From a virus, in the IMG/VR virus record IMGVR_UViG_3300036818_000070, positions 1-64,000 of that record: a stretch of 64,000 nucleotides of DNA. One strand, written 5' to 3'. The notes below the pieces were generated by a model that was not told the origin of the DNA, made no database searches, and saw only the letters and a list, made by a program, of their open reading frames with translations. Numbering within the stretch: the first letter of the stretch is position 1; each line of letters begins with the position of its first letter. The position numbers were made by a program, and so were the translations under genes. Of the stretch, positions 33,932-61,408 are shown in pieces.

Positions 33932-33947
33932 CCCGGCGTAGATTAGG
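33932..33947 (+). promoter_or_regulatory. Late-type promoter element, copy 1
   Basis: Exact copy of CCCGGCGTAGATTAGG, containing the -10-like TAGATT. It lies 36 bases before the ATG of the 33983 gene and directly after a terminator, the classic place for a promoter. Confidence 0.6.
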
Positions 33948-33982
33948 TGGGCTAAGCACCCTCTTCGCTGCAAAGGAGCCCC

Positions 33983-34558
33983 ATGACCGTCAACATCGCT
34001 CGCTTCGAGGAGTCCAGCGAGATCGTCCTCGACAGCGAGACCATTGCCGCCGAGGTCAATGTCACCTTGTCGTACGCGAGCGTGATGCGCGTCGGCGCAC
34101 TCGTGGCAGTACACATCGAAGGCTCATACGTTGGGCCGACCGTCGCGCAGTTGTCCGCCGCGCTATCCACCGGGGGCGGCGCGATCACCGAGCTGCCGGT
34201 TGACGAGCTTGAGGCAGCGGTCGCCGCCGGAAGCTACGTGACCACCGACGGCGTCCATACCCAGACCTGGGTGACGACCGGAGCCGCCAAGAGCGCCACC
34301 GAGATTCCGGTGACCTCCCAGACGCCGACCTTCGACTTCCCGGTGGGACAGGACGTTGTGAGCGCGGCCGAGGCTGAGTTCGCCACCGCCCAGCTCCCCG
34401 CCGCATTCGCGCCCGGCGCGACGGTGACCCCGGTCTTCAGCGGCGACCTGACGGCGGTCAGCATCGACGCGGACGGAGTGCTGCACGTCACGCCGAATGC
34501 GACGGCTGGAGCCTTCGTCATCGACGCGACCTACGCCGCCGGGGTGGCCACACCCTGA
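33983..34558 (+). CDS. Monocistronic beta-rich protein, putative virion component
   Basis: 191 residues; AAAGGAGCCCC precedes the ATG. Thr/Val/Ala-rich with many beta strands and an Ig-like C-terminal segment (GDLTAVSIDADGVLHVT). It has its own late-type promoter upstream and a terminator downstream, indicating a highly expressed single-gene unit such as a decoration or fibre protein. No family was recognised and no signal peptide is present. Confidence 0.6.
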   Translation: MTVNIARFEESSEIVLDSETIAAEVNVTLSYASVMRVGALVAVHIEGSYVGPTVAQLSAALSTGGGAITELPVDELEAAVAAGSYVTTDGVHTQTWVTTGAAKSATEIPVTSQTPTFDFPVGQDVVSAAEAEFATAQLPAAFAPGATVTPVFSGDLTAVSIDADGVLHVTPNATAGAFVIDATYAAGVATP

Positions 34559-34600
34559 CGGCGGGTCTTCCGTAACTTCCTCCCGGTTCCAGGAAGCGAG

Positions 34601-34639
34601 AAAGGCGGTGCGTTCTCAGCGGTGCGCATCGCCTTTTTT
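34601..34639 (+). terminator. Intrinsic terminator
   Basis: AAAGGCG-GT-GCG (34601-34612) pairs with CGC-AT-CGCCTTT, followed by a T6 run (34633-34638 region). Confidence 0.75.
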
Positions 34640-34644
34640 CGTAC

Positions 34645-34673
34645 TTGAAACTCTCCGCGTACCTGTGTACGTT
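34645..34673 (+). promoter_or_regulatory. Host-type promoter
   Basis: TTGAAA (34645-34650), a 17-base spacer, then TACGTT (34668-34673). It follows the terminator and precedes the 34718 gene by 44 bases, giving a leader with GGGATGATG. Confidence 0.65.
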
Positions 34674-34717
34674 CGTCACAGGGATGATGTGACCGGCCGA
34701 CAGGAGGCCAGGGAGAA

Positions 34718-35041
34718 GTGACGGACGAGAAGCGGGCCGCTGGCGGCGCCCCGCAAGTAACAACGAAGCACGCTCAGGCCGACGCGGCGATCACACTGCT
34801 GCGCGACGCCGCGAAGCTGGTGAAGGTGACTGGCGACGAGGCGGCCTATGCCAAGGAGCGCATTGTCGAGCTGACCGATGAGATCGGCGATCTGCGCGGC
34901 GACCTTGATAAGGCGCACGGCGAACTCGGCGACCTGCGGGAGATGCGCAAGCAGCACGAACGCATCACAGACGGCATCCAGGACCTTCGGCGAGGCATCA
35001 TCGACCTCGATGAGCTGGTGAAGATGGCGGCCATCGGATGA
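34718..35041 (+). CDS. Coiled-coil protein
   Basis: 107 residues from GTG 34718 (AGGGAGAA upstream). Residues 45-100 are heptad-like (ERIVELTDEIGDLRGDLDKA, then HGELGDLREM). First gene after the 34.65 kb promoter. Function unknown. Confidence 0.55.
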   Translation: MTDEKRAAGGAPQVTTKHAQADAAITLLRDAAKLVKVTGDEAAYAKERIVELTDEIGDLRGDLDKAHGELGDLREMRKQHERITDGIQDLRRGIIDLDELVKMAAIG

Positions 35042-35361
35042 CACTCGACACGCACGACGCCGAGGAGCTGGCGATGCTTCTCCTCGCGCGCAAGTGGAAG
35101 GCTGGGGAACTGGGCAAAGTGCATCCCAGTATCGGCCGAATCTTCAACCGCAGCCTGCTGCTGGCGGGCGAGGAAGCGGTCCCGTTCGCTCGTGCGACCG
35201 ACGAATCAGCCCCCAGCGTACCTGAGCTGATTCTTCGTGAGCATATGTGTGCACAAACGGTGCAGATCGACCCCAAGATGGTCGCCGAGCGAGCGGTGAT
35301 AACCCCAGAACGGTCAAGGCGGCTGCAAAACGAGCAGGTGTGTGCATATGACAGCGGGTGA
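35038..35361 (+). CDS. Helical hypothetical protein
   Basis: 107 residues, ATGA overlap with the previous stop. Contains a long N-terminal helix and IGRIFNRSLLLAGEE. No family was recognised; a DNA-binding role is possible. Confidence 0.5.
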   Translation: MTLDTHDAEELAMLLLARKWKAGELGKVHPSIGRIFNRSLLLAGEEAVPFARATDESAPSVPELILREHMCAQTVQIDPKMVAERAVITPERSRRLQNEQVCAYDSG

Positions 35362-35590
35362 CCACGAGGAAGCCCGCGCGCTGCTCATGGACGCGCGCCA
35401 CAAGCGGGGCGCACAGGTGATCGCGGAAACCAATGCGCGCGAGGCCACCATTCGGTTCATGGATTCCGCGCTCTTGGCGCTCTGGGGCTGGGACACGATC
35501 GGTAGGGAGCTGAACATCACGGCGACAGCCGCCCGTCGCTACTACAACCGCAACCGCCGACTGATGCGCCCCGGCGCTGCCATCGGCTGA
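35348..35590 (+). CDS. Helix-turn-helix small protein
   Basis: 80 residues from ATG 35348 (GTG 35342 possible). DTIGRELNITATAARRYYNRNRR is a helix-turn-helix recognition unit with a basic end. A small regulator is plausible. Confidence 0.55.
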   Translation: MTAGDHEEARALLMDARHKRGAQVIAETNAREATIRFMDSALLALWGWDTIGRELNITATAARRYYNRNRRLMRPGAAIG

Positions 35591-35603
35591 ATAGGAGGGG
35601 ACA

Positions 35604-36017
35604 GTGCACGACCACGACGCCGGAGTGAAGGCGACGGTAAACCGCATCAGTGCGGGAGCACACCACTATGTGGCGATCACGCGCAAGCGCATCGCCGAGG
35701 CGTTGGATGACCTCGACGCCGGAGAGTTCTGTGACGCGCTCAACAGCCTTCAGGAAGCCTGCCGCAGCGTGGGGCCGCTCGCTCACGCACAGTCGAACAT
35801 CGGCGTCGCTGGAGGGTCTGATCTCGTACGTGTCGGCGACCTCGCCGTTGGCATGGAACTGACCAACGTTGGTGAGATCACCGAGGTCGAGCAGATCGAG
35901 TGCGATGACCCCGACTGTGCCGGTCATGTCGTCGTTCGCGTCGGTGGACGCGAAATGACCCTGGACCCGGACCTGGAGGCGTTCGTTGTCGCGGCCGAGG
36001 AAGCGCCTCCGGAGTGA
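35604..36017 (+). CDS. Hypothetical protein, 137 aa
   Basis: GTG 35604 with GGAGGGGA upstream. A helical N-terminal half is followed by a beta half (MELTNVGEITEVEQIECDD, then CAGHVVVRVGG). One CxxxxxC pair might bind metal. Confidence 0.55.
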   Translation: MHDHDAGVKATVNRISAGAHHYVAITRKRIAEALDDLDAGEFCDALNSLQEACRSVGPLAHAQSNIGVAGGSDLVRVGDLAVGMELTNVGEITEVEQIECDDPDCAGHVVVRVGGREMTLDPDLEAFVVAAEEAPPE

Positions 36018-36421
36018 GCGCGCGCGCCGAGGCCCTGCTGGCCCGCGCGCTCGCCGCCGAGGAGGAGGTCGAGCGACTGGGGGGCGAGATGGAGAAGTTC
36101 CGCCGGGTGCTCGGCAACGTGATGGAGGGGGACCCTCACACCGCCGTGCAGGCTTTGGCGTATATCAAACGGTGTGAGACGGCCGAGGAACTGGTCAGGG
36201 ACGCCCTACAGATCATGGAGACGTGGGACACGGCCGAGTCCAGAGAGCGGCGCAGCGTCTGGCGGACGCGTGCCCACGCCGCGGTGAGCGCGATGCAAGT
36301 CGCCGATCGTGACGCCGAGGGCACGCTGCCGGACGAGAGCGAGTTCTGGCAGTCGGCGGCGGTACCGAGCATCAGACAGAGCCTTGGGCAAATCTCGCGC
36401 GACAGAAAGAGGCGACAGTGA
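36014..36421 (+). CDS. Helical hypothetical protein
   Basis: 135 residues, GTGA overlap with the previous stop. Coiled-coil-like N-terminus (ARAEALLARALAAEEEVERL). Function unknown. Confidence 0.5.
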   Translation: MSARAEALLARALAAEEEVERLGGEMEKFRRVLGNVMEGDPHTAVQALAYIKRCETAEELVRDALQIMETWDTAESRERRSVWRTRAHAAVSAMQVADRDAEGTLPDESEFWQSAAVPSIRQSLGQISRDRKRRQ

Positions 36422-36690
36422 ACGCCGAGGCGGACGAGGTCAGCTACACCCAGTACCGCAACGCCTGCGCCGCGCTCGCGCGCATCGGCGAGCACCTTCA
36501 GACCGCTGACCCCGATGAGGCCGCCGAGCACTATTTGCCCGAGATGACACATCAGGTTGCGCTCATCTTCAGCTTCGTCGGCTCCAACATGACAGCGCGA
36601 CACGTCCCGCGCTACGCGCAAACTGTCGCTGAGTTGGAGGCCGCGAAGGACGGTACCCTTCCAACCAAACACCAATCGCAGGAGGAGTAA
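36418..36690 (+). CDS. Small helical hypothetical protein
   Basis: 90 residues, GTG start overlapping the previous stop. All-helical, acidic. Function unknown. Confidence 0.5.
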   Translation: MNAEADEVSYTQYRNACAALARIGEHLQTADPDEAAEHYLPEMTHQVALIFSFVGSNMTARHVPRYAQTVAELEAAKDGTLPTKHQSQEE

Positions 36691-36693
36691 GCG

Positions 36694-37275
36694 ATGGAAG
36701 CATCAGAGGCCGGGCTCACGCCCGAGCAGGAGAACGCACAGTCCACCGATGAGCTGGCCGCAGCCGAGCAGGAAGTGGCAGCGACCGAAGAGACGATCGC
36801 GACCGAAGAGGCGGCGACCGCAGGCGACGAGGGTCCGGCGCCGACCGACGGCGGCAGCGCGACCGACGGCGGCAGCGCGGACGGGGGAACCGACGGCGGC
36901 ACGACCACCGACGGTGGCGGCACGCAGGCGACCGGCGATACCTCGGGTGGCGATGGTTCCGATTCGGACGGCGCCGACGGCGGCAGCGGCTCGGACGGCG
37001 GCAGCGGCTCGGACGGCGGCGATGGCAGCTCCACCGAGGGTCAGGCCCCCGTCGCGACGGAGCGCGACAAGATCATCGTCGGCGACAGCGGCATGTTCGA
37101 GCAGCAGCCGATGAACCCGGACAACGACGCCGACAAGGTCCACCGCACCTCGGCGCCAGCCGCCGAGATGCAGAGCGGCGTGCCACTGGCCGAGGACCGC
37201 GCCGCTGGCGTGGAGCCCGGCCAGCCGAGCGGAAAGACTCCGCCGCAGGGACCGCCCGCCGAGCCGACGGCCTGA
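36694..37275 (+). CDS. Disordered Gly/Ser/Asp/Thr-rich protein
   Basis: 193 residues. The middle (about 45-120) is low complexity built on DGGS and SDGG units; the ends are acidic. No fold is expected. Such proteins may be virion surface linkers or scaffolding, but no function is shown. GGAGGAG precedes the ATG. Confidence 0.55.
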   Translation: MEASEAGLTPEQENAQSTDELAAAEQEVAATEETIATEEAATAGDEGPAPTDGGSATDGGSADGGTDGGTTTDGGGTQATGDTSGGDGSDSDGADGGSGSDGGSGSDGGDGSSTEGQAPVATERDKIIVGDSGMFEQQPMNPDNDADKVHRTSAPAAEMQSGVPLAEDRAAGVEPGQPSGKTPPQGPPAEPTA

Positions 37276-37403
37276 TGCCGTTCGGACCCTACATCTCGGC
37301 CGTGTTCACGTTGCCGACGACGACGACGACGAAGGTGGGCGGCCGTAGGCGCGACAAGCGCAAGGCCCGCGCCGCGCGCGGCGCACGACGGCGCAATCGC
37401 TAG
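37275..37403 (+). CDS. 42-aa protein with basic tail
   Basis: ATG 37275 overlaps the previous TGA. A short hydrophobic/Thr-rich start (PYISAVFTLPTTTTT) is followed by a run of Arg/Lys residues. The basic tail suggests nucleic-acid binding. Confidence 0.5.
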   Translation: MPFGPYISAVFTLPTTTTTKVGGRRRDKRKARAARGARRRNR

Positions 37404-37426
37404 TCGCGATTCGTTGCACGTTGCGG

Positions 37427-37452
37427 GGAAGGCGTCCCTTGGGGCGCCTTCC
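37427..37452 (+). terminator. Terminator-like hairpin
   Basis: GGAAGGCG (37427-37434) pairs with CGCCTTCC (37445-37452); an inner CCC/GGG extends it. No T tract. Confidence 0.5.
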
Positions 37453-37467
37453 GTCGTTCCGGCGCTG

Positions 37468-37473
37468 TAGCAT
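37468..37473 (+). promoter_or_regulatory. -10 element, TAGCAT
   Basis: TAGCAT lies 8 bases before the ATG of the 37482 gene, which has no ribosome site, suggesting a near-leaderless transcript. The surrounding GCTGTAGCATGCC resembles GCTGTACGATGCC before the 39725 gene. Confidence 0.4.
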
Positions 37474-37481
37474 GCCGCCAC

Positions 37482-37751: not shown

Positions 37752-37761
37752 GTGGGCCGTA

Positions 37762-38203: not shown

Positions 38204-38549
38204 CCTTGCGCGCCCAGCCCGCACAGAGTACGAGACCCTAACCAAGCACGACGCGCTCGGGCGGCCGGTGCTGACCCGAGTCTCGCCGTTTAGCTTCATG
38301 CAGGTGCTCGTCCGGGGCGGCCTGGCGCTCAACGAGGTCCCAGATAACCACTGGGCTAAAGAGTTCATCGACGGCGGCGACTGCGCGCGCGTCAAATGTG
38401 CGTGTGGCTGCGAGCCGGTGGTCCATATCGCGGCGATGCCGACCAAGTGTGAGTGTGGACGCTGGTTCTTCTTCGACGCAACTGGCGTTTACTCGATGTG
38501 CAAGCCTGGGCAGCGGGCCGACGCGCCGGAGGAGCCCGCCCCGGCGTAG
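38187..38549 (+). CDS. Zinc-ribbon hypothetical protein
   Basis: 120 residues from ATG 38187. CACGC and KCECGRWFFF plus a later Cys form a zinc ribbon in the C-terminal half. Its stop codon lies inside a late-type promoter element. Confidence 0.5.
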   Translation: MAGKASLARPARTEYETLTKHDALGRPVLTRVSPFSFMQVLVRGGLALNEVPDNHWAKEFIDGGDCARVKCACGCEPVVHIAAMPTKCECGRWFFFDATGVYSMCKPGQRADAPEEPAPA

Positions 38550-38555
38550 ATTAGG
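38540..38555 (+). promoter_or_regulatory. Late-type promoter element, copy 2
   Basis: Exact CCCGGCGTAGATTAGG. It overlaps the stop of the preceding gene and precedes a 26-aa open frame and the lysis-region membrane genes. Confidence 0.6.
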
Positions 38556-38587
38556 AGCCGTGACGGTTGCAGGAGGGACTCAAAACC

Positions 38588-39690: not shown

Positions 39691-39710
39691 AGTCCGTCTG
39701 TAGGCTGCTG

Positions 39711-39716
39711 TACGAT
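39711..39716 (+). promoter_or_regulatory. -10 element, TACGAT
   Basis: TACGAT lies 8 bases before the ATG of the 39725 gene, and CTGAAG lies 18 bases further upstream. Same geometry as the element at 37468. Confidence 0.4.
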
Positions 39717-39724
39717 GCCACAGC

Positions 39725-40099
39725 ATGGCCCCCTTGACGACCGACCGACTGGCCGAAGCGTTGCAGCTCGCCCGCGACTTGCTCGACCAGGACTCGGCGC
39801 ACTACGAGCGCGGCCGGTTCGGCTTCGAGCTGGCCGCGGGCTGGCGGCTGGCGATTTCCCCGGACGATGCGGAAAGGCTTCGCGTCGAGGTTGTTTCCGG
39901 GGCGCAGACCTGCGGTACGATGTGGACCCGCGCGACCGATCATGAGCGACTGGCGGAGCTTGTGACGACTGCGCGAGATGAGGCACTAGCCCTCGAAAGG
40001 GATGATGATGCGGAAGGCACCTTGGTATCTGTGGGTCATCGTCGCCTGCGCGGCGGTCTGCTTGAGCCTATTCGGGCTCGGGCTCGCGGACGTCGGTAG
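39725..40099 (+). CDS. Hypothetical protein, 124 aa
   Basis: ATG 39725 lacks a ribosome site but has a -10-like element just upstream. Helical N-terminus, then strands (FGFELAAGWRLAIS). Its last 98 bases overlap the endolysin start in another frame, so the true end product may be read together with that region. Function unknown. Confidence 0.5.
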   Translation: MAPLTTDRLAEALQLARDLLDQDSAHYERGRFGFELAAGWRLAISPDDAERLRVEVVSGAQTCGTMWTRATDHERLAELVTTARDEALALERDDDAEGTLVSVGHRRLRGGLLEPIRARARGRR

Positions 40100-41180
40100 C
40101 ACCACCACCACCGTCACGAGGACGGTTACAACACCGTCGCGAACATCCACGACGGCGGCAGCGCAGCTCAAGGCACAAGCCGTGGCGCCGTGCGGCGCGA
40201 ACGACAAGGGCTCGATGGGCGGTTGTGCGCCGAGGACATTTTCCGGCGCGATCACGCAGCCCGCTGGCGTCCTGTTCTGTGACCGCAGCAACAACAACAC
40301 GCTTCAGTCAGGCGCCGCCCTCAAGGCCGAGGGCTGCCACGGGTTGATAGCCAAGGCGAACCAGGGCTCCTGGGACGACCCGACGACGGCCTCGTGGATA
40401 AACAACGCGCGGTCGGTCGGGCTCGCTGTCGGCGTCTACGACTTCGATGCCGACTACACGGTCGCGGAGGCGAAGGTGTTCGCTTCCGCCGCGCGTGCCG
40501 TCGCCATCACGCCGACGGCACGTAACACCTTCCTGCTCATTCTCGACGTCGAGTGGGGCTCGTTCAACTACACCGGCCTCAAGGCGCAGATCCACTACCT
40601 CGTGGGGCTCGGCTACCGGGTCGGCATCTACACGGGGGAGTGGTACTGGACGCCGCACGCTGGCGACATCTGGCCGACGAACACCTACGGCTGGCTCTCT
40701 GGCTACCCGGTCGCAGTGACGATCACCGGCATGCCGACGAACCTCTATGTCATGCACCAATACACCAGCTCGCCGCTCGACCAGTCGGTGTACTTCGGGT
40801 CCCTGGCGCAGTTCGAGGCGTTCGTGAACAACGCCCCCGTCCCGGTCAAGACGACCACCGCGACGACGGCGACCAAGACCTCGACCACGCCGACGAAGAG
40901 GCGCAACCCCAAGGTCAAGCCGAAGCCCACAATGCGCCTGGCCATCGTCGTTGGACGCTACCCGCACAAATCTGAGGTGCGCGTCCGGGCGGGATACGAC
41001 CGCCGGGGACTCGGCGACGGCTGGTGGGAATACGTACCGAACCGGAGCGCCGCCAAGGGGGCAACTCTCGTTGGCCGGTACGGGCGCAAATCGCAAGTGC
41101 CGGTCCGACGCGGTTCCACGCGCCGGGGACTCGGCGATGGCTGGTGGGAATACGTCAAGACCAAGGAGACGACGAAGTGA
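40002..41180 (+). CDS. GH25-type endolysin with signal anchor and C-terminal repeats
   Basis: 392 residues; three in-frame ATG codons at 40002, 40005 and 40008, with AAAGG in front. Residues 8-30 are a hydrophobic signal or anchor helix, followed by a Thr-rich linker. The catalytic part (about 85-280) has FCDRSNNN in the place of the usual D-x-S-x-x-Q start, KANQG, and LDVEWGSF (about 180) with the catalytic acid, ending in HQYTSSPLDQ, as in GH25 lysozymes. After a second Thr/Lys/Pro linker come two 40-residue repeats ending DGWWEYV, probably wall-binding. It cuts the glycan chain of peptidoglycan; the N-terminal anchor suggests export independent of a holin pore. Confidence 0.75.
   Translation: MMMRKAPWYLWVIVACAAVCLSLFGLGLADVGSTTTTVTRTVTTPSRTSTTAAAQLKAQAVAPCGANDKGSMGGCAPRTFSGAITQPAGVLFCDRSNNNTLQSGAALKAEGCHGLIAKANQGSWDDPTTASWINNARSVGLAVGVYDFDADYTVAEAKVFASAARAVAITPTARNTFLLILDVEWGSFNYTGLKAQIHYLVGLGYRVGIYTGEWYWTPHAGDIWPTNTYGWLSGYPVAVTITGMPTNLYVMHQYTSSPLDQSVYFGSLAQFEAFVNNAPVPVKTTTATTATKTSTTPTKRRNPKVKPKPTMRLAIVVGRYPHKSEVRVRAGYDRRGLGDGWWEYVPNRSAAKGATLVGRYGRKSQVPVRRGSTRRGLGDGWWEYVKTKETTK
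41001..41155 (+). repeat. 120-bp-period repeat in the endolysin C-terminus
   Basis: Bases 41001-41035 and 41121-41155 differ at one position. They encode the repeated RRGLGDGWWEYV ends of two 40-residue modules. Confidence 0.9.
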
Positions 41181-48826: not shown

Positions 48827-48842
48827 CCCGGCGTAGATTAGG
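48827..48842 (+). promoter_or_regulatory. Late-type promoter element, copy 3 (leaderless)
   Basis: Exact CCCGGCGTAGATTAGG. The TAGATT core ends 6 bases before ATG 48846, so transcription would start at or next to the start codon. Confidence 0.65.
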
Positions 48843-48845: not shown

Positions 48846-49097
48846 ATGGCACTCTTCACGCTGACCGAGCGCATCAACCTGTTGAACTCCCACCGTGGAG
48901 GGTTCGACCAGTACCAGATCGCCGCCATTCTCGGCGTCGACCTCGCCGACGTCGAAGGCGTGCTGAGCGACGCCGACTTCACGCCGACGGCGCCGCCGAC
49001 GCCGAGCCTCAACGTGAGCGGCATCCCGACGGCCGACCCGCACGTCGAGGGTGACGTCTGGTCCAACGACGGCGTGCTCACCGTAAGCGCGGGGTAA
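48846..49097 (+). CDS. Small protein sharing an N-terminal module with the 56391 gene
   Basis: 83 residues; no ribosome site, but a late-type element immediately upstream. Residues 6-38 (TERINLLNSHRGGFDQYQIA, then AILGVDLADVEGVL) match residues 5-37 of the 56391 product (NERAITLYNQSGGFDIQQVA, then AILGVDAADV) and look like a helix-turn-helix. A Pro/Thr linker and a short beta tail follow. Perhaps a virion-associated or head-assembly factor. Confidence 0.6.
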   Translation: MALFTLTERINLLNSHRGGFDQYQIAAILGVDLADVEGVLSDADFTPTAPPTPSLNVSGIPTADPHVEGDVWSNDGVLTVSAG

Positions 49098-49101: not shown

Positions 49102-51660
49102 TTGGAGCCGTCCTTTCCGGCGGTCGCGCAGCCGCCGATGCGAAGCGAGCACCCGGTGGCGGGCGCCTCGGTGGTTATTGACAATCGCACGGACCTGCCG
49201 GACTCGCAGATTCGCGAGGTCGTGCGCGATCAGTGGACGGAGATCGCGGGGCTCCAGATGGGGCACCCGAACAACTTCCAGCTCTACGCAAATAACCAGG
49301 GCTCGATGCTGGCGCGCACACCGTTCCGCACGCCGTCGAGCGTCATAGATGAGATCAGGCTGGCGCGCAGCGTCGCCGACACCGATGATGACATCGGCGC
49401 GATCATCGGACAGATGAACGCCATCGCGTTCGGCGACGGACTTGTCAACCAGCATCGTGACGAGAAGACGCTGGAGTTCTTCAACCAGATCACGAAGCCG
49501 ACCGGCATGGACCTCCCGAGTGTCATGGAGGAGATGTATCGCGAGCTGCTGATCTCCTCCTCGGTCACAACGCTCACGGTCTTCAGTCGGAAGCGCATGC
49601 AGTACTGGCCACTGAAGAGTGACACCCCGATACAGGCACAGCTCCAGGTCCCGAACGTCGCCGTGCTCCCGGCCGAGAACCTTCGCGTCATCACCAACGA
49701 CATCATGCACTCCGGGCAGCTCGCCTACTTCGTTGAGGACCCGAGCCTGCGGAACTGGCTGAACGAGTACCTGGACGAGAACACCAAGGCGTCACGCAAG
49801 GCGTACATGGCGATGCAGGAGCCTGTGGTGGCCGCGCTGTTCACCGGCAAGTATCGCGTGCCGATGAACGACGGTGACATCACCTCGCGCGGGCAGACGC
49901 TCTACACACTGAACCAGGCGATGGTGAAGCGCACCACGATGCCGAAGGGTACGCAGCCGTACCCGCGCCCTCTGTTGACACGCAACTTCGCGCTCCTCGA
50001 AGCCAAGCGCCTGCTCAACATCATGGACTATGCGCTGCTTCAAGGTGGCACCAACTACATCGTTGTGGCCAAGAAGGGCTCGGACAATCTCCCGGCGCAG
50101 CAGGCCGAGGTTGACAATCTGGTCGAGCAGGTGCGTCACGCGTCACGTTCAGGCGTGCTCGTCGGCGACCACCGAGTGGACATCGAGATCATCACGCCGA
50201 CACTCACCGAGCTGCTGAACCCGAACAAGCGCAAGCTCATCGGACGCAAGCTGAAGATGGGCCTCATGCGCCAGTCCGAAGAGGTCCCCGGTGACACGGG
50301 GCCACAGGGCTCGATCAACGAGATGGAGCTGACCTCGCGCGTCATCGCCAGCGACCGCCGCAAACTGATCTCACACGCCCAGGCGACCTTCTTCGATGAC
50401 ACCGCGACGCGCAATCGCAGCGTGTTCCCGATGGGCGCGCCGCACATCTGGGCACCGAAGATCATTCTGACCAACGTCCAGCAGTTCTGGCAGATGGTCC
50501 TCAACGCCCGCGACCGCGGCGACATTCCCCGCCGCTGGGTGGTCGAGTCTCTCGGCTACAACTTCGACGCTGCCGTTGCCGAGCGCCAGCGTGAGATCGC
50601 CAATGGGGTCGATGAGATTCTCACCCCCGCGGCTGTGCCGTTCTCCAATCCCGGCGAGCCACAGGACAACGGTCCCGGACGGCCGCCCGGCACGAGCCCG
50701 AACAACGGCAGCAGCAGAGACCTGCCAGGTCAGGGCCGTGATGCTGCCGCGCCGACTCGTGTCATCCATCGCAACGCGGGGGAGACCGTGACGGCGTTCG
50801 TGGAGAACAACGAGGTCCACTACGTCGGCGAGCTGACCCGCAGGGTGCTGGAGCAGTATGGCGAGACGGCCGACTACAACGGCTACGTCGTGCAGGCCGA
50901 ACGAGACGCGATCGACTGGAACCAGACCGTCCGCTCCGGCAGCTCCGTCATCGTGCCGGTCAACCCCAACCAGCGCTGCCAGGAGTTCGCCAGCGTGAAG
51001 CTGGAGGAGGGGTTGCGCATGATCGTCGGACGCCGACTCGGCGACGGCGCGATGGTTGCCCGAGCGCTGCGCTTCCAGGAGCCGCGCTTCGATCTCAAGC
51101 GCGCCAGCGAGTACGCCATCCGCTGGGGCTTCATGGTCGCGCCGATGGTCGAGACCGCCGCGTCGAGCGCGCCGACCTGCACCAACTGCGGACTGCGACT
51201 GGACGACTACCCGACTAACCCGGTGTGTCCGTCCTGCGGCGCCGACAACACGCAGGGCGGCCCGGCCGTCGGCGAGTCATCAACCGGCGGCGTCGGGCCG
51301 TCATTGGACGACACGGCGGCCACCGACGACCTCGACCAGCGCGTCAGGACGCTTGCTGCGGAGGTCCAGCGACTGACCGTGCTACTCACCGGCAGCAGCC
51401 ACGCGCCGAGCGAGTGGATCAGCGACGCGAAGTGGCCGTACGAGAAGCGCGAGCTGGCGGTCCGTGCCGGTGACGCGCTGCCGGGCGGCCGCTTCCCGAT
51501 CATCGACCAGGAGGACGCCGACTTCGCTGCCGGTCACGCCGACCAGAGCACCATCCCGCGCGAGCAGGTCGTCTCCCACGTCATCGCAATGGTCAAGCGG
51601 CACGGACTGGAGATGCCGAAGGTCCTGGACGATGACATCAACCCACCAGACCGACAGTGA
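49102..51660 (+). CDS. Portal protein with C-terminal zinc ribbon
   Basis: 852 residues from TTG/ATG region 49102. The body (1-500) has the mixed helix and strand pattern and the long stem-like helices of SPP1/HK97-type portals; it follows the terminase and precedes the protease. It is longer than usual: residues 693-712 hold CTNCG...CPSCG, a zinc ribbon. The last 75 residues (LPGGRFPIIDQEDADFAAGH) repeat a domain also found as the next separate gene. It forms the DNA-entry ring of the head. Confidence 0.7.
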   Translation: MEPSFPAVAQPPMRSEHPVAGASVVIDNRTDLPDSQIREVVRDQWTEIAGLQMGHPNNFQLYANNQGSMLARTPFRTPSSVIDEIRLARSVADTDDDIGAIIGQMNAIAFGDGLVNQHRDEKTLEFFNQITKPTGMDLPSVMEEMYRELLISSSVTTLTVFSRKRMQYWPLKSDTPIQAQLQVPNVAVLPAENLRVITNDIMHSGQLAYFVEDPSLRNWLNEYLDENTKASRKAYMAMQEPVVAALFTGKYRVPMNDGDITSRGQTLYTLNQAMVKRTTMPKGTQPYPRPLLTRNFALLEAKRLLNIMDYALLQGGTNYIVVAKKGSDNLPAQQAEVDNLVEQVRHASRSGVLVGDHRVDIEIITPTLTELLNPNKRKLIGRKLKMGLMRQSEEVPGDTGPQGSINEMELTSRVIASDRRKLISHAQATFFDDTATRNRSVFPMGAPHIWAPKIILTNVQQFWQMVLNARDRGDIPRRWVVESLGYNFDAAVAERQREIANGVDEILTPAAVPFSNPGEPQDNGPGRPPGTSPNNGSSRDLPGQGRDAAAPTRVIHRNAGETVTAFVENNEVHYVGELTRRVLEQYGETADYNGYVVQAERDAIDWNQTVRSGSSVIVPVNPNQRCQEFASVKLEEGLRMIVGRRLGDGAMVARALRFQEPRFDLKRASEYAIRWGFMVAPMVETAASSAPTCTNCGLRLDDYPTNPVCPSCGADNTQGGPAVGESSTGGVGPSLDDTAATDDLDQRVRTLAAEVQRLTVLLTGSSHAPSEWISDAKWPYEKRELAVRAGDALPGGRFPIIDQEDADFAAGHADQSTIPREQVVSHVIAMVKRHGLEMPKVLDDDINPPDRQ

Positions 51661-52015: not shown

Positions 52016-52030
52016 CCCGGCGTAGATTAG
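52016..52030 (+). promoter_or_regulatory. Late-type promoter element, copy 4 (leaderless)
   Basis: CCCGGCGTAGATTAG, then T. The TAGATT core ends 7 bases before ATG 52036; the gene has no ribosome site. Confidence 0.65.
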
Positions 52031-52035: not shown

Positions 52036-53343
52036 ATGACCGCAACGCTGCTGGGCAGGCCGCATACATTCGAGCGCGGCGACAGGGTGTATCTCACCAC
52101 GCCGATTCGGATTGTTACGCCCTCGCAGCAGGAGGTCGAGGAGTTCGCGTTCGCGTCCGCGGTCAAGACGAAGGCGCCCAACGAGAACATCGGCTGGCTT
52201 GAGGGCCGCTACGTCGAGGCTGGCAATGCCAACCTCAATGGCGCGATGTGGCTCTCGAACGAGCTGGCCGTGAAGGCGCTTACGCCGATGCTCATGCCGA
52301 TCACCGTGATGCACGACCCGCGCACTGCCGTTGGCACAATCGCCGACTGCAAGCTGCAAAGCGAGACGACGTCGCGCATTGACACGGTGCTGGCGGTCTG
52401 GCGGCATCGCTTCCCCGAGGTGTGGGAGGAGGCGGAAGCGAATGTCGCGGCGGGCACGATGATGCAGTCGATGGAGTGCTACGCGCCGTGGTACACGTGC
52501 GCCGACTGCAACCAGCAGTACATCAAGCTGCCGAACGGCGCCGAGCGCGCCTCGTGGTGTGACCACCTACGGGGCAACGGCAGTTCACCCGGACGGCGTA
52601 TATTAGGCGACGTCTGCTTCACCGGAACTGGATTGATCTTCGGAACTCGGGGAGGGGTCGGCGCCTACACAGAGGCGTATCTCGACCACTTCCATGATGA
52701 GGTCGCGGAGTACCACGAACGGTCACACGCTGAGAGCACGTACACGCCGAACCACAGGAGCACAAGTCAAATGGGTCTTGTCCAGATTGAAGAGTCGGAG
52801 CTGGCAACCCTCCGCCGCGAGCGTGACGAGGCTCGTGTGGAGGCCGACACTCTGAAGAACAGCAACCGCGACCTGACGACCAAGGCCGAGCAGGCCGAGG
52901 CCGCACAGAAGGTCGCGGAGACGGCCGCCGAGGCCGCACAGAAGGCGCAGAAGGACTCCGAGGAGAAGGCGCAGGCCGCCACCCTCAAGAGCACGCGCCT
53001 GGGCGCACTCGGCGACGGCTTCATGGCCAAGCTGGGCGAGACCTCCAAGACGGTTCTCGGCGAGCTGGCGGGCACCGCTTCCGATGAGGCGTGGGAGCAG
53101 GCGGTCGCCGAGCGCGAGGAGCTGGTCAAGGCCAAGCGCGACGCCAAGGCCGACGGCACGCCCGCGCCGAAGGACGAGGGCGCAAGCACCACGGCGAACG
53201 GCTTCCAGGACGAGGAGGTCGCGAGCTTCATGGGCCGCGTCACCGCGCCGGAGGCCAGCGCCACCAACAACGACGTCAATGGCTCGACGGCCGTGCGGTC
53301 ACTCGCTCGCTCGTTCGCCAAGCCGAAGAAGACCGCCGCCTAA
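52036..53343 (+). CDS. Head maturation protease fused to scaffold
   Basis: 435 residues from ATG 52036 (GTG 52030 also in frame). The N-terminal half contains MHDPRTAVGTI (His about 93) and GTMMQSMECY (Ser about 145), the His and Ser of HK97-type prohead proteases, and a zinc-like CADC...C cluster. The C-terminal half from about 245 is an Ala/Glu/Lys coiled coil with a disordered tail, as in scaffolding proteins. The same gene thus supplies protease and scaffold, and an internal start may supply scaffold alone. Confidence 0.75.
   Translation: MTATLLGRPHTFERGDRVYLTTPIRIVTPSQQEVEEFAFASAVKTKAPNENIGWLEGRYVEAGNANLNGAMWLSNELAVKALTPMLMPITVMHDPRTAVGTIADCKLQSETTSRIDTVLAVWRHRFPEVWEEAEANVAAGTMMQSMECYAPWYTCADCNQQYIKLPNGAERASWCDHLRGNGSSPGRRILGDVCFTGTGLIFGTRGGVGAYTEAYLDHFHDEVAEYHERSHAESTYTPNHRSTSQMGLVQIEESELATLRRERDEARVEADTLKNSNRDLTTKAEQAEAAQKVAETAAEAAQKAQKDSEEKAQAATLKSTRLGALGDGFMAKLGETSKTVLGELAGTASDEAWEQAVAEREELVKAKRDAKADGTPAPKDEGASTTANGFQDEEVASFMGRVTAPEASATNNDVNGSTAVRSLARSFAKPKKTAA
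52594..52607 (+). promoter_or_regulatory. Internal late-type promoter variant
   Basis: CGGCGTATATTAGG, differing from the main element by one base (TATATT for TAGATT), inside the protease coding region and 164 bases before the internal ATG 52771. Confidence 0.45.
52771..53343 (+). CDS. Internal in-frame scaffold gene
   Basis: 190 residues from ATG 52771, in frame with the protease-scaffold gene. AGGAG lies 10 bases upstream, and a promoter-like element precedes it. The product begins MGLVQIEESELATLRRERDE and is the entire coiled-coil scaffold. The arrangement parallels lambda Nu3 within C. Confidence 0.55.
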   Translation: MGLVQIEESELATLRRERDEARVEADTLKNSNRDLTTKAEQAEAAQKVAETAAEAAQKAQKDSEEKAQAATLKSTRLGALGDGFMAKLGETSKTVLGELAGTASDEAWEQAVAEREELVKAKRDAKADGTPAPKDEGASTTANGFQDEEVASFMGRVTAPEASATNNDVNGSTAVRSLARSFAKPKKTAA

Positions 53344-53363: not shown

Positions 53364-54041
53364 ACGAGAGCCCGAGAGGAGCCCTGAAAGCACATGCCCG
53401 AGGCATTGACTCAAGTTGGCGCGTACCCGCTTCTGGGTGTTGGCCAGCTCCCCAACGTTTCCGTCGCCTCCCCTGGCGAGGTCTGGTCGCGGAAGCGCGC
53501 AAACGGGGTCATCGTCCCCGGCTCGTGCGTGCGTCCCGTCGAGGTCAACGGTGTCGATATGGTGCAGCCGGTCACGGCCGATGACACCGTCGTCGCCACC
53601 GGCAGCGGCATCCGCATCGAGCAGCTCTCCGTTGCCATGCGTCAAATCATGGTGCCGGACATCAACCCCGGCTCGCAGTACAACCCGCAGCTCGGCCCGA
53701 ACGAGATCGTCAACCTGGCGATTGCGGACAACGACTATGTCCGCGAGTACAAGACGGGTGTCCTGCACCTGACGCTGGTGAAGCCGGACGCGGACTACGC
53801 GGTCGGCGACATCGTCGGCTGGGACCCCGGCGCCGCCCGCCCCACCGGCAAGGCGACGGGCACCGGGGCCTGGGCGCGGATGGCCGACGACGAGAGCGTC
53901 GTCGCCAACACCGGCATCTTCGAGGTCCACACCAAGCCGCGTTACTACGGCTCAAACAACGAGTGCGTCCTGACTGTCCGCTTCCTGCGGAGCAACCAGT
54001 AGCGGCCACCACCACCGAGACGACGAGAGCCCGAGAGGAGC
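53364..54041 (+). repeat. 19-bp leader repeated before two capsid genes
   Basis: ACGAGAGCCCGAGAGGAGC occurs exactly at 53364-53382 and 54023-54041, 11 bases before the starts of the 53394 and 54052 genes. It carries the ribosome site GAGAGGAG. A shorter relative (ACGAGAGGAG) precedes the 63175 gene. Confidence 0.85.
53394..54002 (+). CDS. Head decoration protein candidate
   Basis: 202 residues, beta-rich, rich in Val, Gly, Asp and Pro. Located between scaffold and major capsid protein, where tailed phages often encode a decoration or stabilisation protein. The same leader as the capsid gene suggests comparable expression. No family was confirmed. Confidence 0.55.
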   Translation: MPEALTQVGAYPLLGVGQLPNVSVASPGEVWSRKRANGVIVPGSCVRPVEVNGVDMVQPVTADDTVVATGSGIRIEQLSVAMRQIMVPDINPGSQYNPQLGPNEIVNLAIADNDYVREYKTGVLHLTLVKPDADYAVGDIVGWDPGAARPTGKATGTGAWARMADDESVVANTGIFEVHTKPRYYGSNNECVLTVRFLRSNQ

Positions 54042-54051: not shown

Positions 54052-54990
54052 ATGGATGCCCTGGTAGAGCGCGCTCTTGCAGAGGTTGCGGCGGCCACAG
54101 ACGAGGACCGCCGTGCCCTGCTGATGAGCGAGTCCAACGGGGCGCTGGGAGCTTACTTCCGGCGCCACCCGCAGGAGATGGAAGAGGTCGCGTTCGCGCT
54201 GTTCGATCAAGCGTGGGCCGACATGATGCAGGAGGACATTCTTCCGCGCATCATCGACGTCAAGACCGTCGGGCTCGGCGAGGTTGACTGGGTGGATGAG
54301 GACCTGCGCGGCATGCACGCGTACTTCCAGGGCAAGGGCGGCCAGATTCTGTCCGACCTGCTCCGCTACCAGCGCACCCAGATGCCGCGCGAGGAGATGG
54401 CCATCGCCATCGACCTTCACCGTGACGAGATCGAACTGGACTTCTGGGGCACGTTCCAGAAGCTTCAGGACCAGGCCAACGAGAAGGTTCGTCAGCTCCC
54501 GGTCCGCCAGCTCATCACCCTGCTCCAGCAGGGCATCACGGCTGGTACGACGTTCGCCGAGGTCCCCGCCTCCACGTTGACCGCAAACAACGTGGACCCC
54601 GTGATCGACTTCGTGTCACAGCGCTCGAAGGGCAACGTCACGCTGATCGGCGCGCGCAACGCCGTCCGCGTCCTGTCCAACATCGGTGTGCAGTTCGGCA
54701 TGAACGTCGCCGAGCGCATCTTCAACGCCGGACAGGTCGGCGTCTACAAGGGCTACCCGGTGGTCGAGGTCGAGAACTTCGAGGACTTCGGCGGCAATCT
54801 CGTCGTCCCGGTCAACGAGATCTGGGTCGTCGGCCAGAACGCGGGCCGTCTGACCTACTTCGGCGCGGACCCGAAGGTGCAGCAGCTCCCCCGTTCGGGC
54901 TTCTACGTCCGCTGGGAGAGCGCACGCGACGCGGGCATGCTGCTCTACGGCGTCGGCCGCGGGCGCATCGGGCGCATCGTCTTCTCCTAA
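54052..54990 (+). CDS. Major capsid protein, HK97 fold
   Basis: 312 residues. The order fits an HK97-type capsid: a helical N-terminal arm, a long spine-helix region (YQRTQMPREEMAIAIDLHRD), then the peripheral domain and the C-terminal strand set NEIWVVGQNAGRLTYFGADP. It follows scaffold and decoration genes and has a strong ribosome site in the shared leader. Length is typical. Confidence 0.75.
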   Translation: MDALVERALAEVAAATDEDRRALLMSESNGALGAYFRRHPQEMEEVAFALFDQAWADMMQEDILPRIIDVKTVGLGEVDWVDEDLRGMHAYFQGKGGQILSDLLRYQRTQMPREEMAIAIDLHRDEIELDFWGTFQKLQDQANEKVRQLPVRQLITLLQQGITAGTTFAEVPASTLTANNVDPVIDFVSQRSKGNVTLIGARNAVRVLSNIGVQFGMNVAERIFNAGQVGVYKGYPVVEVENFEDFGGNLVVPVNEIWVVGQNAGRLTYFGADPKVQQLPRSGFYVRWESARDAGMLLYGVGRGRIGRIVFS

Positions 54991-56386: not shown

Positions 56387-56390
56387 CGCT

Positions 56391-57580: not shown

Positions 57581-58428
57581 GCCTGCCGGTTGACACCCCG
57601 CTCGATCTCGGTCAGCTCGGGAGCAGCCCCTCAGCCCCGGCTTCGGGTCGCCTGCGCATATGGGCGGACTCGGATGGCTCCGTGTATGTCACGGACAGCT
57701 CGGGCACCACTACGCTCGTCGGCCCCGGCCTGACTGCGGCCGACGTCACTAACGCCGCCGACACCAGCTCGGACGACGTGCAGGAGTTCACGGGGTTCGT
57801 GGAGACGCCTGTGCTGATCTCCTCTGGATACGCGGGCGCGACCTATGGACTCGACGGCACCAACCGCTTCCTGGGGGCCACGAGTAGTGGGCCGCCGAGT
57901 GGCTACCCCATCTCGGGATGGCTGGAGGGCGACTGGTGCCTCGACCTGACGGGCGCGATATGGATGTGCACGACCGCCGGGAAGCCTGGCACCTGGACGA
58001 ACCTCACTAGCGCGGCGAACATTGGACTGGGCTCGGCCGCGATGATTCAGTCCTCCACAACGCAAGCGGTGACGGCAGCCACCTTCACGCCGATCACGAT
58101 GCCTTCGACCGTGTGGGACTACTCGTCCGGCGACGCGATGACCGCCACCGCCAGCCGGTTGACAGCCCCGGTGGCGGGTCTCTATCTCGCGACGGGCTGG
58201 ATTGAGTACCAGGAGGCCACTGAGGTCGCCCTTGAGGCGAACATACGCTGGAACGGAGCCACCTACGACCAGCCAGAAGAGGAGCCCGGAGTCTCGACAA
58301 GTCAAACGACCGGGCAGGCCACGGCCATGATGAAGCTAGCAGCCGGAGGGTATGCCGAGCTGGTGGGGTGGTCATCGGCGGCCGTAACCGTCCACTACGG
58401 GGCACTGCAAATGGCAAGAATCGGATGA
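57577..58428 (+). CDS. Fibre protein with C1q/TNF-like tip
   Basis: 283 residues. After Gly/Ser/Thr-rich beta segments, the last 110 residues (YLATGWIEYQEATEVALEAN, then TATAMM..LAAGGYAELVGW, then VTVHYGALQMARIG) have the strand rhythm of a trimeric C1q/TNF-like head, a common receptor-binding tip. It ends the fibre trio. Confidence 0.55.
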   Translation: MSLPVDTPLDLGQLGSSPSAPASGRLRIWADSDGSVYVTDSSGTTTLVGPGLTAADVTNAADTSSDDVQEFTGFVETPVLISSGYAGATYGLDGTNRFLGATSSGPPSGYPISGWLEGDWCLDLTGAIWMCTTAGKPGTWTNLTSAANIGLGSAAMIQSSTTQAVTAATFTPITMPSTVWDYSSGDAMTATASRLTAPVAGLYLATGWIEYQEATEVALEANIRWNGATYDQPEEEPGVSTSQTTGQATAMMKLAAGGYAELVGWSSAAVTVHYGALQMARIG

Positions 58429-58439
58429 GGCGGCTGTAG

Positions 58440-59363
58440 ATGATCGCGGCGACTATCGGCACGCAGTTCACGGCCTACACCGAAGAGGGTGTGACAGGGC
58501 TGGTCGGAACCATCGGAGTCACGCTCCAGGACGACCAGGGTAACGTCATCCAGGAGCGCACGACCGAGAACATCGCGGAGGTGGCGACCGGGTCCGGCAT
58601 CTACCAGTACACCGGCACTGCGCCGCTCAAGCCGGGGCCATATGTGGTGACGTGGGACACGGGTGGCGACCCGCCACAAACCTTCAACGAGATGATGCTC
58701 GCCACGCCAGCCGTCACCCACGGAGGCGAGATCGAGACCGTCGCCGACCTTACGGACCTCTTGGTGCTGGTGCCGTGGGCCAAACGCGCGTGCGAGGGGC
58801 CATACGGACCGCCCCCTGGACAGTCCACGCTGACCAATGATCTGCTGTATCCGATGGTCGCCGACGCCTGCTCCGAGATCATCTTGTACTCGGGGTCGCT
58901 GTTTGGCCACCAGCTTCATGTCAAGAGTCGTGACCCCACCGCGGGATTCCCGACGGGCTGGCGAACCGACAAGGTTCTCAACCAGTGGGAGGGCGCGGTC
59001 GTCATCTGTCAGGTTGCACTCGACTATCTGCGCTTCCTGTACCGCGACCTCAAGACCACCCTGTCCATCAAGAATGAGGGCACCGAGTATTCCTACTCGA
59101 TGTCACCGACCATCGTGGCGGCGTGGATCAAGCAGCTTCAGTCCGACCGCGACAAGGCCATCGACGGGCTCCGCGCGCACAACGTCGTGCTCGATCAGTA
59201 CGCCTCCAACATCCGGGTGCGCGACCCGGCAACTGTGGCGATCTTGGAGTGGTGGGACACCAACGAGTTTGACGGTGTCGGCTCGCTCGGAATGCCGGGC
59301 GGCCAGGAAGCGGCCGTCATTCCGTGGACCCCCGGCTGGTCTGGCCCAGGCTTCACGCCATGA
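58440..59363 (+). CDS. Head-tail connector candidate
   Basis: 307 residues. Residues 1-95 read as an Ig-like domain (TLQDDQGNVIQERTTENIAE); residues 100-300 are helical (LLYPMVADACSEIILYSGSL). Order after the head genes and before small completion genes fits a gp6-type adaptor. Identity is by position. Confidence 0.5.
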   Translation: MIAATIGTQFTAYTEEGVTGLVGTIGVTLQDDQGNVIQERTTENIAEVATGSGIYQYTGTAPLKPGPYVVTWDTGGDPPQTFNEMMLATPAVTHGGEIETVADLTDLLVLVPWAKRACEGPYGPPPGQSTLTNDLLYPMVADACSEIILYSGSLFGHQLHVKSRDPTAGFPTGWRTDKVLNQWEGAVVICQVALDYLRFLYRDLKTTLSIKNEGTEYSYSMSPTIVAAWIKQLQSDRDKAIDGLRAHNVVLDQYASNIRVRDPATVAILEWWDTNEFDGVGSLGMPGGQEAAVIPWTPGWSGPGFTP

Positions 59364-59809
59364 GCTTCACGATCGGCACCGGAGACGTCGCGGACTTCGT
59401 AGCGGCACAGGACTCGCTCCGCGCGCAACTCGGCGCCGAGGTTACGTTCGGCGTCCCAACCGACCCGCAGTGGCCCGAGGGCACGGCCATCAACGCCGAC
59501 ACCGGCGTGCCGTTCGACGCAACGGTAGTTCAGTCGAACGCCGAGTTCGACTACACGACGATCACCTGCCTGGTCATCGAAAAGCAGGGGTCGCCGCTAC
59601 GACCACAGGCGGATACCTACTTCAACCAGTCGGGCTTTCGCTCTGGCATGGACATCATCTTGGACGTGGCCACTGCCGACTACGAGGCCACCGTGGCCAA
59701 CGCGACGACGTTCACGGTCGATGGAGACGACTTCTCGGTCGAGGAAGCCAAGCCCTTCTCGATCGGCACGACCATCTATCGGTACATCGTCTACGGAGCC
59801 GCCAAGTGA
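59360..59809 (+). CDS. Head completion/neck protein candidate
   Basis: 149 residues, ATG overlapping the previous stop. Beta-rich, with no motif. Size and order suggest a neck or stopper protein. Confidence 0.5.
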   Translation: MSFTIGTGDVADFVAAQDSLRAQLGAEVTFGVPTDPQWPEGTAINADTGVPFDATVVQSNAEFDYTTITCLVIEKQGSPLRPQADTYFNQSGFRSGMDIILDVATADYEATVANATTFTVDGDDFSVEEAKPFSIGTTIYRYIVYGAAK

Positions 59810-60360
59810 GCACGAACACGCCCAACCTCCTGCGCGCCGAGTTGGTCGAAGCATCCGTGCGCCGCTGCCTCATCTCACTGCTGCCGAACTACGGCATGGT
59901 CATGCAGCAGGAGGGCTTCAGCGGCCCGGCGCCCAACGTCGTCTTCCGGGAAGCGTTCCCAACACCCGACGAGCGCGAAAGCGAGCTGACAGTAACCACC
60001 GTGTCCTTCGGCTTCAGTGTCGATGACGGCGGCGTCCCCGCCGAGCTGGGCACGACGCTGACGAAGTATGTCCACACGATCACGGCCTGGGTGTTCGCGC
60101 TTGAGCCGCGCTTCGGGCGCAAGGTCGCCTGGGCGATGCAGGCGGCGTCACGTATCGGCCCCGGTCCCTATGGGCTGCCGGACACCATCCCGTTACTGGA
60201 CTTCAACGCGGACCCAGACGACCCGCCGCAGATCGACATTCTTTGCACGCTCGGCTCCCAGGTAGCGCACCAGGGCAACAACAGCATCCGACCGTGGGAC
60301 AAGTACGTGTGGACGACGACGATCAACGTCCGCGACATCGCCGAGGTGGACGCTTCGTGA
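59806..60360 (+). CDS. Neck / tail-completion protein candidate
   Basis: 184 residues from GTG 59806 overlapping the previous stop. A helical start (LLRAELVEASVRRCLISLLP) and a beta-rich body. Position suits a tail terminator or minor connector. Confidence 0.5.
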   Translation: MSTNTPNLLRAELVEASVRRCLISLLPNYGMVMQQEGFSGPAPNVVFREAFPTPDERESELTVTTVSFGFSVDDGGVPAELGTTLTKYVHTITAWVFALEPRFGRKVAWAMQAASRIGPGPYGLPDTIPLLDFNADPDDPPQIDILCTLGSQVAHQGNNSIRPWDKYVWTTTINVRDIAEVDAS

Positions 60361-61064
60361 GCTTCACCGTCCCAGGCGGGAGAAGCGACTTCCACGAGTT
60401 CGCCTTCGTGTGCTACGGCAAGGACATCCCCGACGTCATACGCAACGCCGTGGACATCCAGGCGGTGGCCGAGAAGGTCGGCTACGCCACCTACGCCGAC
60501 CGGCTCGGGCGCGCGCTGGACACGCTCACGCGCGACATGGAGCACCTCGGCGAGCAGATGGCCGTCCTCGGCACCCTCACGCTACGACAGATCGAGCGCG
60601 CCACCCGCGTCAGGCCGGAGGCTCACCGCTCCGGTCACAAGAGCCTCAACGACTCCCTCTATGCACGTCCGCTCGCGATACCCGGCGGCATTGGCATCGC
60701 CGACTTCGTCGTGCTCGATCGCGATGTCCGCTGGTGGCCCACCAACGAGTTCGGTTCCAACGCACGCGTCGGCGGCCGACTGTTCGGAACATTCACAGGC
60801 GGCTCGGGCGACTCGCCACCGGACCCCTCACAGTTTCGCCAGCACGCCATGTTCGAGTCCGGCGACGGCCCCGACGCAGGGCTTGGCATCATCACGAACC
60901 CGATACCGGCCAGGCACTTCATCGAGGAGTCCGTCAAGGTCATCGACAAGGAGTGGCGAGCCAAGTACGACGCGGTCGTCGGCGCGTTCAACTCACAGCT
61001 AGACGACCTCCTCAAAGAGGTCGCGCGCCAGCTCAAGGCACAACGGGCCGGGGGCCTGCCGTGA
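60357..61064 (+). CDS. Head-tail joining/tail completion candidate
   Basis: 235 residues from GTG 60357. A long helical C-terminus (YDAVVGAFNSQLDDLLKEVA) and a Gly/Pro-rich middle. HK97-gp10-like size; family not confirmed. Confidence 0.45.
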   Translation: MSFTVPGGRSDFHEFAFVCYGKDIPDVIRNAVDIQAVAEKVGYATYADRLGRALDTLTRDMEHLGEQMAVLGTLTLRQIERATRVRPEAHRSGHKSLNDSLYARPLAIPGGIGIADFVVLDRDVRWWPTNEFGSNARVGGRLFGTFTGGSGDSPPDPSQFRQHAMFESGDGPDAGLGIITNPIPARHFIEESVKVIDKEWRAKYDAVVGAFNSQLDDLLKEVARQLKAQRAGGLP

Positions 61065-61408
61065 GCAGTCTTGCGCGCCAACGGCAGTCGGGTGGAAAGC
61101 GCCGAGCGGCGTATATTAGCCCCAACCCCAAGGGCGATAGGGGGGTGGACCTGGCGGCCACCCTCCACAGGCGGCGGAAGAACGCGATGATCTCGCTGCT
61201 CAGCGAGTTCGAGACCGAAATCCAGCCCCTGATCGCCGGGAACGAACAGGCAATCGAGCATTTCAAGAGGAGCTGTCGAGAGAAACTGAACGCGGTCACG
61301 TTCGAGGCCATTGAGCTGATGCAGCTCGGGCCTGGCGAGGAGCTGAACGAACTGGCGGTCGATCTCACAGCACGTCTTCAGTCCGGCGATAACGGAGGCA
61401 CCAAGTAA
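61061..61408 (+). CDS. Small basic/helical protein before the tail tube gene
   Basis: 115 residues from GTG 61061. Basic N-terminus, then helices (NAMISLLSEFETEIQPLIAG). A promoter-type element lies inside its first codons. It may be a tail completion or minor chaperone; function unknown. Confidence 0.5.
   Translation: MSSLARQRQSGGKRRAAYISPNPKGDRGVDLAATLHRRRKNAMISLLSEFETEIQPLIAGNEQAIEHFKRSCREKLNAVTFEAIELMQLGPGEELNELAVDLTARLQSGDNGGTK
61107..61119 (+). promoter_or_regulatory. Late-type promoter variant before the tail genes
   Basis: CGGCGTATATTAG, one base different from the main element, about 290 bases before the major tail protein start. Confidence 0.45.

Follow-up and report, generated by a model that had tools for sequence, protein, structure and literature searches.

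The virus record IMGVR_UViG_3300036818_000070 (G000; 80,165 bp), from an uncultured tailed phage, contains several near-identical copies of a short sequence in its late region, and the question raised by this locus is whether these copies are promoters and, if so, what reads them. The stretch of DNA analysed was the first 64 kb of the record (hereafter the window), in which a first-pass annotation had proposed a phage-specific late promoter with leaderless starts. The conserved unit proved to be CGTANATTA, a 9-bp element in which eight positions are fixed. Comparison across relatives suggests that this element is very probably the late promoter of the clade to which the phage belongs, read by host RNA polymerase together with a phage-encoded sigma factor of the extracytoplasmic function (ECF) type, and that a copy lying inside a protease-scaffold fusion gene would yield a separate mRNA for the scaffold.

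All six copies listed in the first-pass annotation were found at their positions, with exact CCCGGCGTAGATTAGG at 33932, 38540 and 48827, one mismatch to it in the copy at 52016, and CGGCGTATATTAG at 52594 and 61107. Across the whole record, CGTANATTA occurs six times on the plus strand, which is the virion-gene strand, and not at all on the minus strand, against expectations of 0.076 and 0.078, respectively, under a first-order Markov model; no copy lies in the early region. The core reads CGTAGATTA at the first four sites and CGTATATTA at the last two, all on the plus strand. The first (33937–33945) precedes a gene of unknown function (33983–34558, 191 aa) with an AAAGGAG ribosome site in its leader, and has a syntenic counterpart at position 62893 of the related genome G001, ahead of the orthologous gene. 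The second (38545–38553) precedes a block that includes a GH25 lysozyme gene (40005–41180) and has AGGAGG in its leader. The third (48832–48840) is separated by 5 nt from the ATG at 48846 of an 83-aa gene, predicted to be leaderless, which is followed by 49138–51660 (840 aa), the probable portal gene judging by gene order. The fourth (52021–52029) is placed alike in most relatives and lies 6 nt from the ATG at 52036 that opens the protease-scaffold gene, likewise predicted to be leaderless, and the sixth (61110–61118) precedes 61145–61408 (87 aa) and 61409–62695 (428 aa, a probable tail protein). The earlier statement that the copies precede virion or lysis genes does not hold for the copy at 52594, whose core (52597–52605) forms the codons CGT ATA TTA inside the protease-scaffold open reading frame (ORF; 52036–53343).

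A megablast comparison of the 20-kb late stretch (40–60 kb) with phage records gave no DNA-level match and no close relatives of the probable portal gene were found, so capsid and terminase queries were used to gather relatives. Searches with the major capsid protein (54052–54990, plus strand) returned 27 viral contigs, plus one from an Actinomycetota genome bin, which with G000 form a first set of 29 records, each oriented with the capsid gene on the plus strand. In this set CGTANATTA occurs 123 times on the plus strand, where 0.85 copies are expected by chance, and never on the minus strand; the reversed pattern, used as a control, matched once. Replacing any one fixed base gave low counts with no comparable strand bias, and the lack of a comparable excess of single-mismatch variants indicates that the element is close to all-or-none. 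In the 2.2-Mb Actinomycetota metagenome-assembled genome (MAG), the phage contig carries three copies and the remainder of the bin none. A second set, built with a terminase profile to which a distant phage had contributed, comprised 36 loci at 41–69% identity to the window terminase, some of which are contigs already in the capsid set, and 43 outgroup loci at 30–35% identity. The element is present in 32 of the 36 near loci, with 98 copies on the plus strand and none on the minus strand, and is absent from both strands of the 43 outgroup loci (564 kb) and from 11 larger outgroup contigs scanned whole. In an unguided count of every 9-letter word, allowing one free position, CGTANATTA ranked first for strand-biased excess in the near terminase loci, and the same scan on the 43 outgroup loci returned no such word, giving mostly codon-like words.

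The sites also recur at the same places in relatives, namely before the probable portal gene, before the protease gene, inside it, and before the small gene that precedes the 428-aa probable tail protein, with an additional site after the capsid gene in several relatives. Counterparts of the 48832 site before the portal block were found in G001, G005, G010, G016, G018, G021, G026 and G029, and the 61110 site is syntenic in the same eight genomes and in G002. The motif is thus syntenic, restricted to one strand and confined to the clade rather than randomly placed, and these comparative results support the proposal of a phage-specific late promoter. A separate collection scan with the 15-mer CCCGGCGTAGATTAG recovered two further contigs with one copy each, which were set aside as probable chance occurrences on account of their differing GC content and, in the one that was fully read, a single CGTANATTA in 29.7 kb.

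Among 101 non-redundant sites, strong information outside CGTANATTA is restricted to the preceding base (T, or G in the window's group) and the following GG. The bases further upstream vary by sub-clade, being CGG near the window, CAGT in G003 and G004, TT in G005 and ACGNNNGT in G018 and G019; CCCGG upstream of the core is found in this phage only, and its nearest relatives share it as CGG. As these upstream bases are sub-clade-specific, the CCCGGCG that had been taken as the constant part is a local form of which only the final CG is constant, and the invariant part is CGTANATTA instead. The earlier observation that the sites lack a TTGACA-like -35 element extends to the relatives, since no -35 consensus appears at any fixed distance across the sites, where there is a weak A/T preference 15–16 nt upstream of the core. 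A distant -35 element was sought in every sub-clade, and only G018 and G019 hint at GAW 15–17 nt upstream of the core, a signal too weak to claim. As a separate observation, 3 nt separate the string CAACGGCAGT from the core that follows it in G002 (CCAACGGCAGTCGGCGTATATTA); in the window, where the string occurs upstream of 52597 and 61110, the gap is wider, which looks like an insertion between string and core.

The spacing to start codons was determined for 82 non-redundant sites outside the protease gene, with the condition that the ATG or GTG open an ORF of at least 60 codons. Such a start lies 5–8 nt after the motif at 37 of the 82 sites, compared with 5.0% of random nearby positions, and over all sites gaps of 5, 6, 7 and 8 nt occur 14, 15, 5 and 4 times, with none at 1–4 or 9 nt. 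With a gap of 5 nt, TANATT begins (first T) 12 nt before the start codon; bacterial leaderless promoters carry TANNNT about 12 nt before the start, and this is the normal leaderless signal in Actinobacteria (PMC3160421). The 37 sites share this arrangement, and their spacing fits leaderless transcripts, in line with the first-pass proposal, which had also correctly placed the end of the TAGATT core 6 nt (copy at 48827) and 7 nt (copy at 52016) before an ATG that has no Shine-Dalgarno (SD) sequence. Many of the remaining sites have a start 20–50 nt downstream, behind a GGAGG-like sequence. Within the window, the sites at 33937, 38545 and 61110 have leaders of about 25–40 nt, with a clear SD sequence at 33937 and 38545, so that only two of the six sites (48832 and 52021) appear leaderless. 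A GC-rich hairpin with a T-rich tail (33897–33931), resembling a terminator at the early/late boundary, lies directly 5' of the 33937 promoter; as a general rule, this pairing of terminator and promoter was rejected, as it occurs at three of the 82 sites compared with 0.7% in controls and holds at 33937 but not generally.

The candidate reader of CGTANATTA is encoded at 10251–10787 on the plus strand, a predicted 178-aa ECF-type sigma factor with regions 2 and 4. Its product matches the Pfam region 2 family above cut-off and TIGR02937 just under cut-off, a PDB profile match spans both domains, and the structural model has confident region-2 and region-4 domains, with Foldseek matches to Mycobacterium tuberculosis SigE and SigH and to CnrH. 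Orthologues were found in all eight first-set genomes >60 kb and in five of five further motif-bearing contigs >60 kb outside the profile (E 1e-42 to 1e-51), and in none of the 11 motif-free outgroup contigs at a comparable score. The alternative sigma factor suggested by the first-pass annotation thus has a plausible counterpart in all 13 of the large motif-bearing contigs. No match to an RNA polymerase beta subunit was found in these 13 genomes in a search whose positive controls worked, so that a multisubunit phage RNA polymerase is not indicated, and no single-subunit RNA polymerase was matched in a search of the same genomes that had no positive control. Used as a query, the sigma factor matched nothing in the phages collection, and a sigma-based search for further contigs returned no relatives. 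Outgroup contigs G039, G041, G043, G044, G046 and G047 encode other sigma-70 region-2 proteins and have no CGTANATTA, which suggests that sister phages may use other sigma-promoter pairs. The sigma gene of G005 (L050) may be autoregulated, as a CGTAAATTA site at record position 53641 precedes it by about 0.5 kb.

The closest competing explanation is that the element is a true promoter with a host sigma factor, housekeeping or alternative, as its reader. TANNNT at about 12 nt is, after all, the ordinary leaderless signal of actinobacteria (PMC3160421), but the element is far stricter than this, with eight fixed positions and hardly any single-mismatch relatives, and the rest of the MAG has no copies whereas the phage sigma gene is present in every motif-bearing contig >60 kb; a host reader is accordingly considered unlikely. 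Somewhat less probable still is that the motif serves for repression or silencing, like the stoperators of mycobacteriophage L5, which are asymmetric sites repeated in one orientation; the phage studied here would then be temperate, and its own immunity repressor would bind the motif. The asymmetry and orientation bias of the CGTANATTA sites would suit such a role, as would the integrase and the helix-turn-helix (HTH) protein (12424–12996) encoded in the record, but the fixed 5–8 nt distance to start codons and the -10-like TANATT sequence would not, nor would the absence of copies from the early region of G000, where a repressor should act; further, the HTH orthologue was undetected in three of the seven other first-set genomes >60 kb, all of which have the sigma factor. 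A signal at the RNA level, in which transcribed CGUANAUUA acts as a processing or translation element, would explain why the element is always on the coding strand and near starts, but its distance to starts is bimodal (5–8 or about 20–50 nt) and reaches about 165 nt for the nested gene described below, and no Rfam family matched the window sequence, leaving this explanation with very little probability.

The protease-scaffold gene that contains the internal copy (52036–53343, plus strand) encodes a 435-aa fusion of an N-terminal prohead-protease domain, for which the three best Foldseek matches are T4 gp21 capsid protease (best E 8e-3) and in which His93 and Ser145 are invariant, and a C-terminal scaffold-like part of 190 residues that is charged, rich in A, E, K and Q and poor in aromatics, as is often the case in scaffolds. 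The internal motif forms the codons CGT-NNN-TTA at one place in 28 of 28 protease-scaffold loci, in genomes where TTA makes up 0.5% of leucine codons (121 in 285,189 codons) and CGT usage is 10%. The encoded middle residue varies between Ile, Arg and Thr, and the conserved T, G and L residues nearby change codons freely, so that the fixation of CGT and TTA alongside this variation indicates a constraint acting on the DNA. It is hardly credible, then, that the 52597 copy is kept only for the protein sequence R-x-L with no promoter function, even though the site sits in a conserved protein stretch (RILGDVCFTGTGLIFG), given that the middle residue varies, that the adjoining T, G and L codons vary synonymously, and that CGT and TTA are fixed in spite of their low usage.

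Downstream of the internal motif, by 150–183 nt, an in-frame ATG (24 loci) or GTG (four loci) with an SD sequence is present within the protease-scaffold ORF at all 28 loci, several of which are closely related and so represent fewer independent lineages; of the control spans, 20% have any such start and 2.4% have an ATG preceded by AGGAG or GGAGG. In the window, this start is the ATG at 52771, with AGGAG 10 nt before it, and it would open a nested in-frame scaffold gene (52771–53343, plus strand; 190 aa, beginning MGLVQIEESELA). On the strength of this recurring internal start, the internal copy is read as a nested promoter, which the first-pass annotation had not proposed, and it is likely that the copy at 52597 drives the putative nested scaffold gene from its own 3'-coterminal mRNA. 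A gene resembling this protease, at 25301–27283 of MK557849 (L055) and annotated as portal in GX15bay, has an apparent intein-like insert, for which no confirming Pfam match was found. Nothing relevant on internal promoters for phage scaffolds, or on leaderless promoters in phages, was found in a literature search that had most subscription journals outside its coverage.

Under the proposed mechanism, host RNA polymerase with the phage ECF-type sigma factor (10251–10787) would read CGTANATTA after early-gene expression. The element would act in the manner of a -10 box, spanning about -14 to -6 relative to the transcript start, with no accompanying -35 consensus. Transcripts from nearly half of the sites would begin on the start codon and be leaderless, and those from most other sites would have a short leader, in many cases containing a ribosome site. 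The internal site would produce a shorter 3'-coterminal mRNA from which the scaffold alone could be translated at the internal SD and ATG or GTG, and this nested mRNA would result in more scaffold than protease. It is probable that this holds for the whole tailed-phage clade, in which the phage sigma factor, acting through the single 9-bp element, would drive the scaffold gene from a promoter of its own inside the protease gene, a counterpart of herpesvirus UL26/UL26.5 with the scaffold to protease ratio set transcriptionally.

Several points weigh against this interpretation. The transcript starts at the motif, the role of this sigma factor as reader, the scaffold product and the host phylum are all deduced from sequence, and the phylum, most likely Actinomycetota, from a single binned contig. 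The similarity of the sigma factor to region 4 is weak and a clear -35 element is missing, which is unusual for an ECF sigma factor, and as the sigma factor and motif are confined to one clade, shared descent could explain their co-occurrence without a direct link. The match of the protease domain to gp21 has an E-value of 8e-3 and was obtained with a model whose mean predicted local distance difference test score (pLDDT) is 71, and the scaffold part has no family match, its role being proposed from position, composition and gene order.

The wider gene layout of the window places exonuclease, replication initiator, DnaB helicase, ECF-type sigma factor and integrase genes in the left part and GH25 lysozyme, terminase, probable portal, protease-scaffold, capsid and tail genes in the right part. 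No tRNA gene was detected in the window. On the minus strand, window positions 18936–23106 encode a MoxR-type AAA ATPase (RavA-like), a VWA protein (ViaA-like) and a DUF6744 protein, a block kept in most relatives that forms a chaperone-like module unusual in a phage. The gene for a RuvB-like Holliday-junction ATPase (17701–18873, minus strand; 45–69% identity) ranks with the most conserved of the clade's genes outside the virion set. The terminase large subunits of G002 (L042:134-2923) and G018 (L097:6359-9109) contain inserts with Hint or homing-endonuclease domains, and these inserts are therefore likely to be inteins.

To our knowledge, no transcription signal was previously known for this group of uncultured phages. 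A late promoter with an 8-of-9 invariant consensus would make late transcription units predictable from sequence across a large group, would pair a phage ECF-type sigma factor with its likely target and, if the nested gene is as proposed, would explain simply how a single fused ORF could give scaffold in excess of protease. Herpesviruses and tailed phages are generally considered to have related machinery for capsid assembly, and the arrangement described here would be a bacterial parallel to the protease-scaffold layout best known from herpesviruses.

The promoter has its closest precedents in phiEco32 and T4, whose sigma promoters also consist of a single element; the present system shares with them a strict short element before late or virion genes, no conserved -35 element and a phage sigma-70-type factor. 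In phiEco32 and 7-11, a phage sigma factor and host RNA polymerase use a single 9-bp element (TAATGTATA) before structural genes (PMC4331800). The likeness lies in the phage-encoded sigma factor and the single short element before virion genes; the present system differs in its consensus, in its GC-rich and probably actinobacterial setting, in belonging to an integrase-bearing phage, and in its predicted leaderless starts and promoter inside the protease gene. The T4 late promoter (TATAAATA), recognized by the phage sigma factor gp55, is likewise a short and strict -10-only element, at -13 to -6 (PMC1524935), and CGTANATTA would sit at about -14 to -6. However, T4 uses the sliding clamp gp45 together with gp33, whereas here the sigma factor has a region-4 domain and no DnaN-type clamp was found, judging by the DnaN C-terminal domain family in the 13 genomes, with a T4-like gp45 clamp not searched for. 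For the nested gene, phage lambda C/Nu3 is a precedent in which the 3' portion of the capsid protease gene also encodes the scaffold, in the same frame. Lambda is generally described with an internal translation start, but here an internal promoter would also precede the internal ribosome site. In herpesvirus UL26/UL26.5, the in-frame scaffold gene has its promoter within the protease coding region and the transcripts are 3'-coterminal (PMC2949831). By analogy, the clade described here would share with UL26/UL26.5 a protease-scaffold ORF with a nested in-frame scaffold gene and an internal promoter, although transcription there is eukaryotic and here would depend on a bacterial-type promoter and an SD sequence, so that homology of the DNA signals is not implied.

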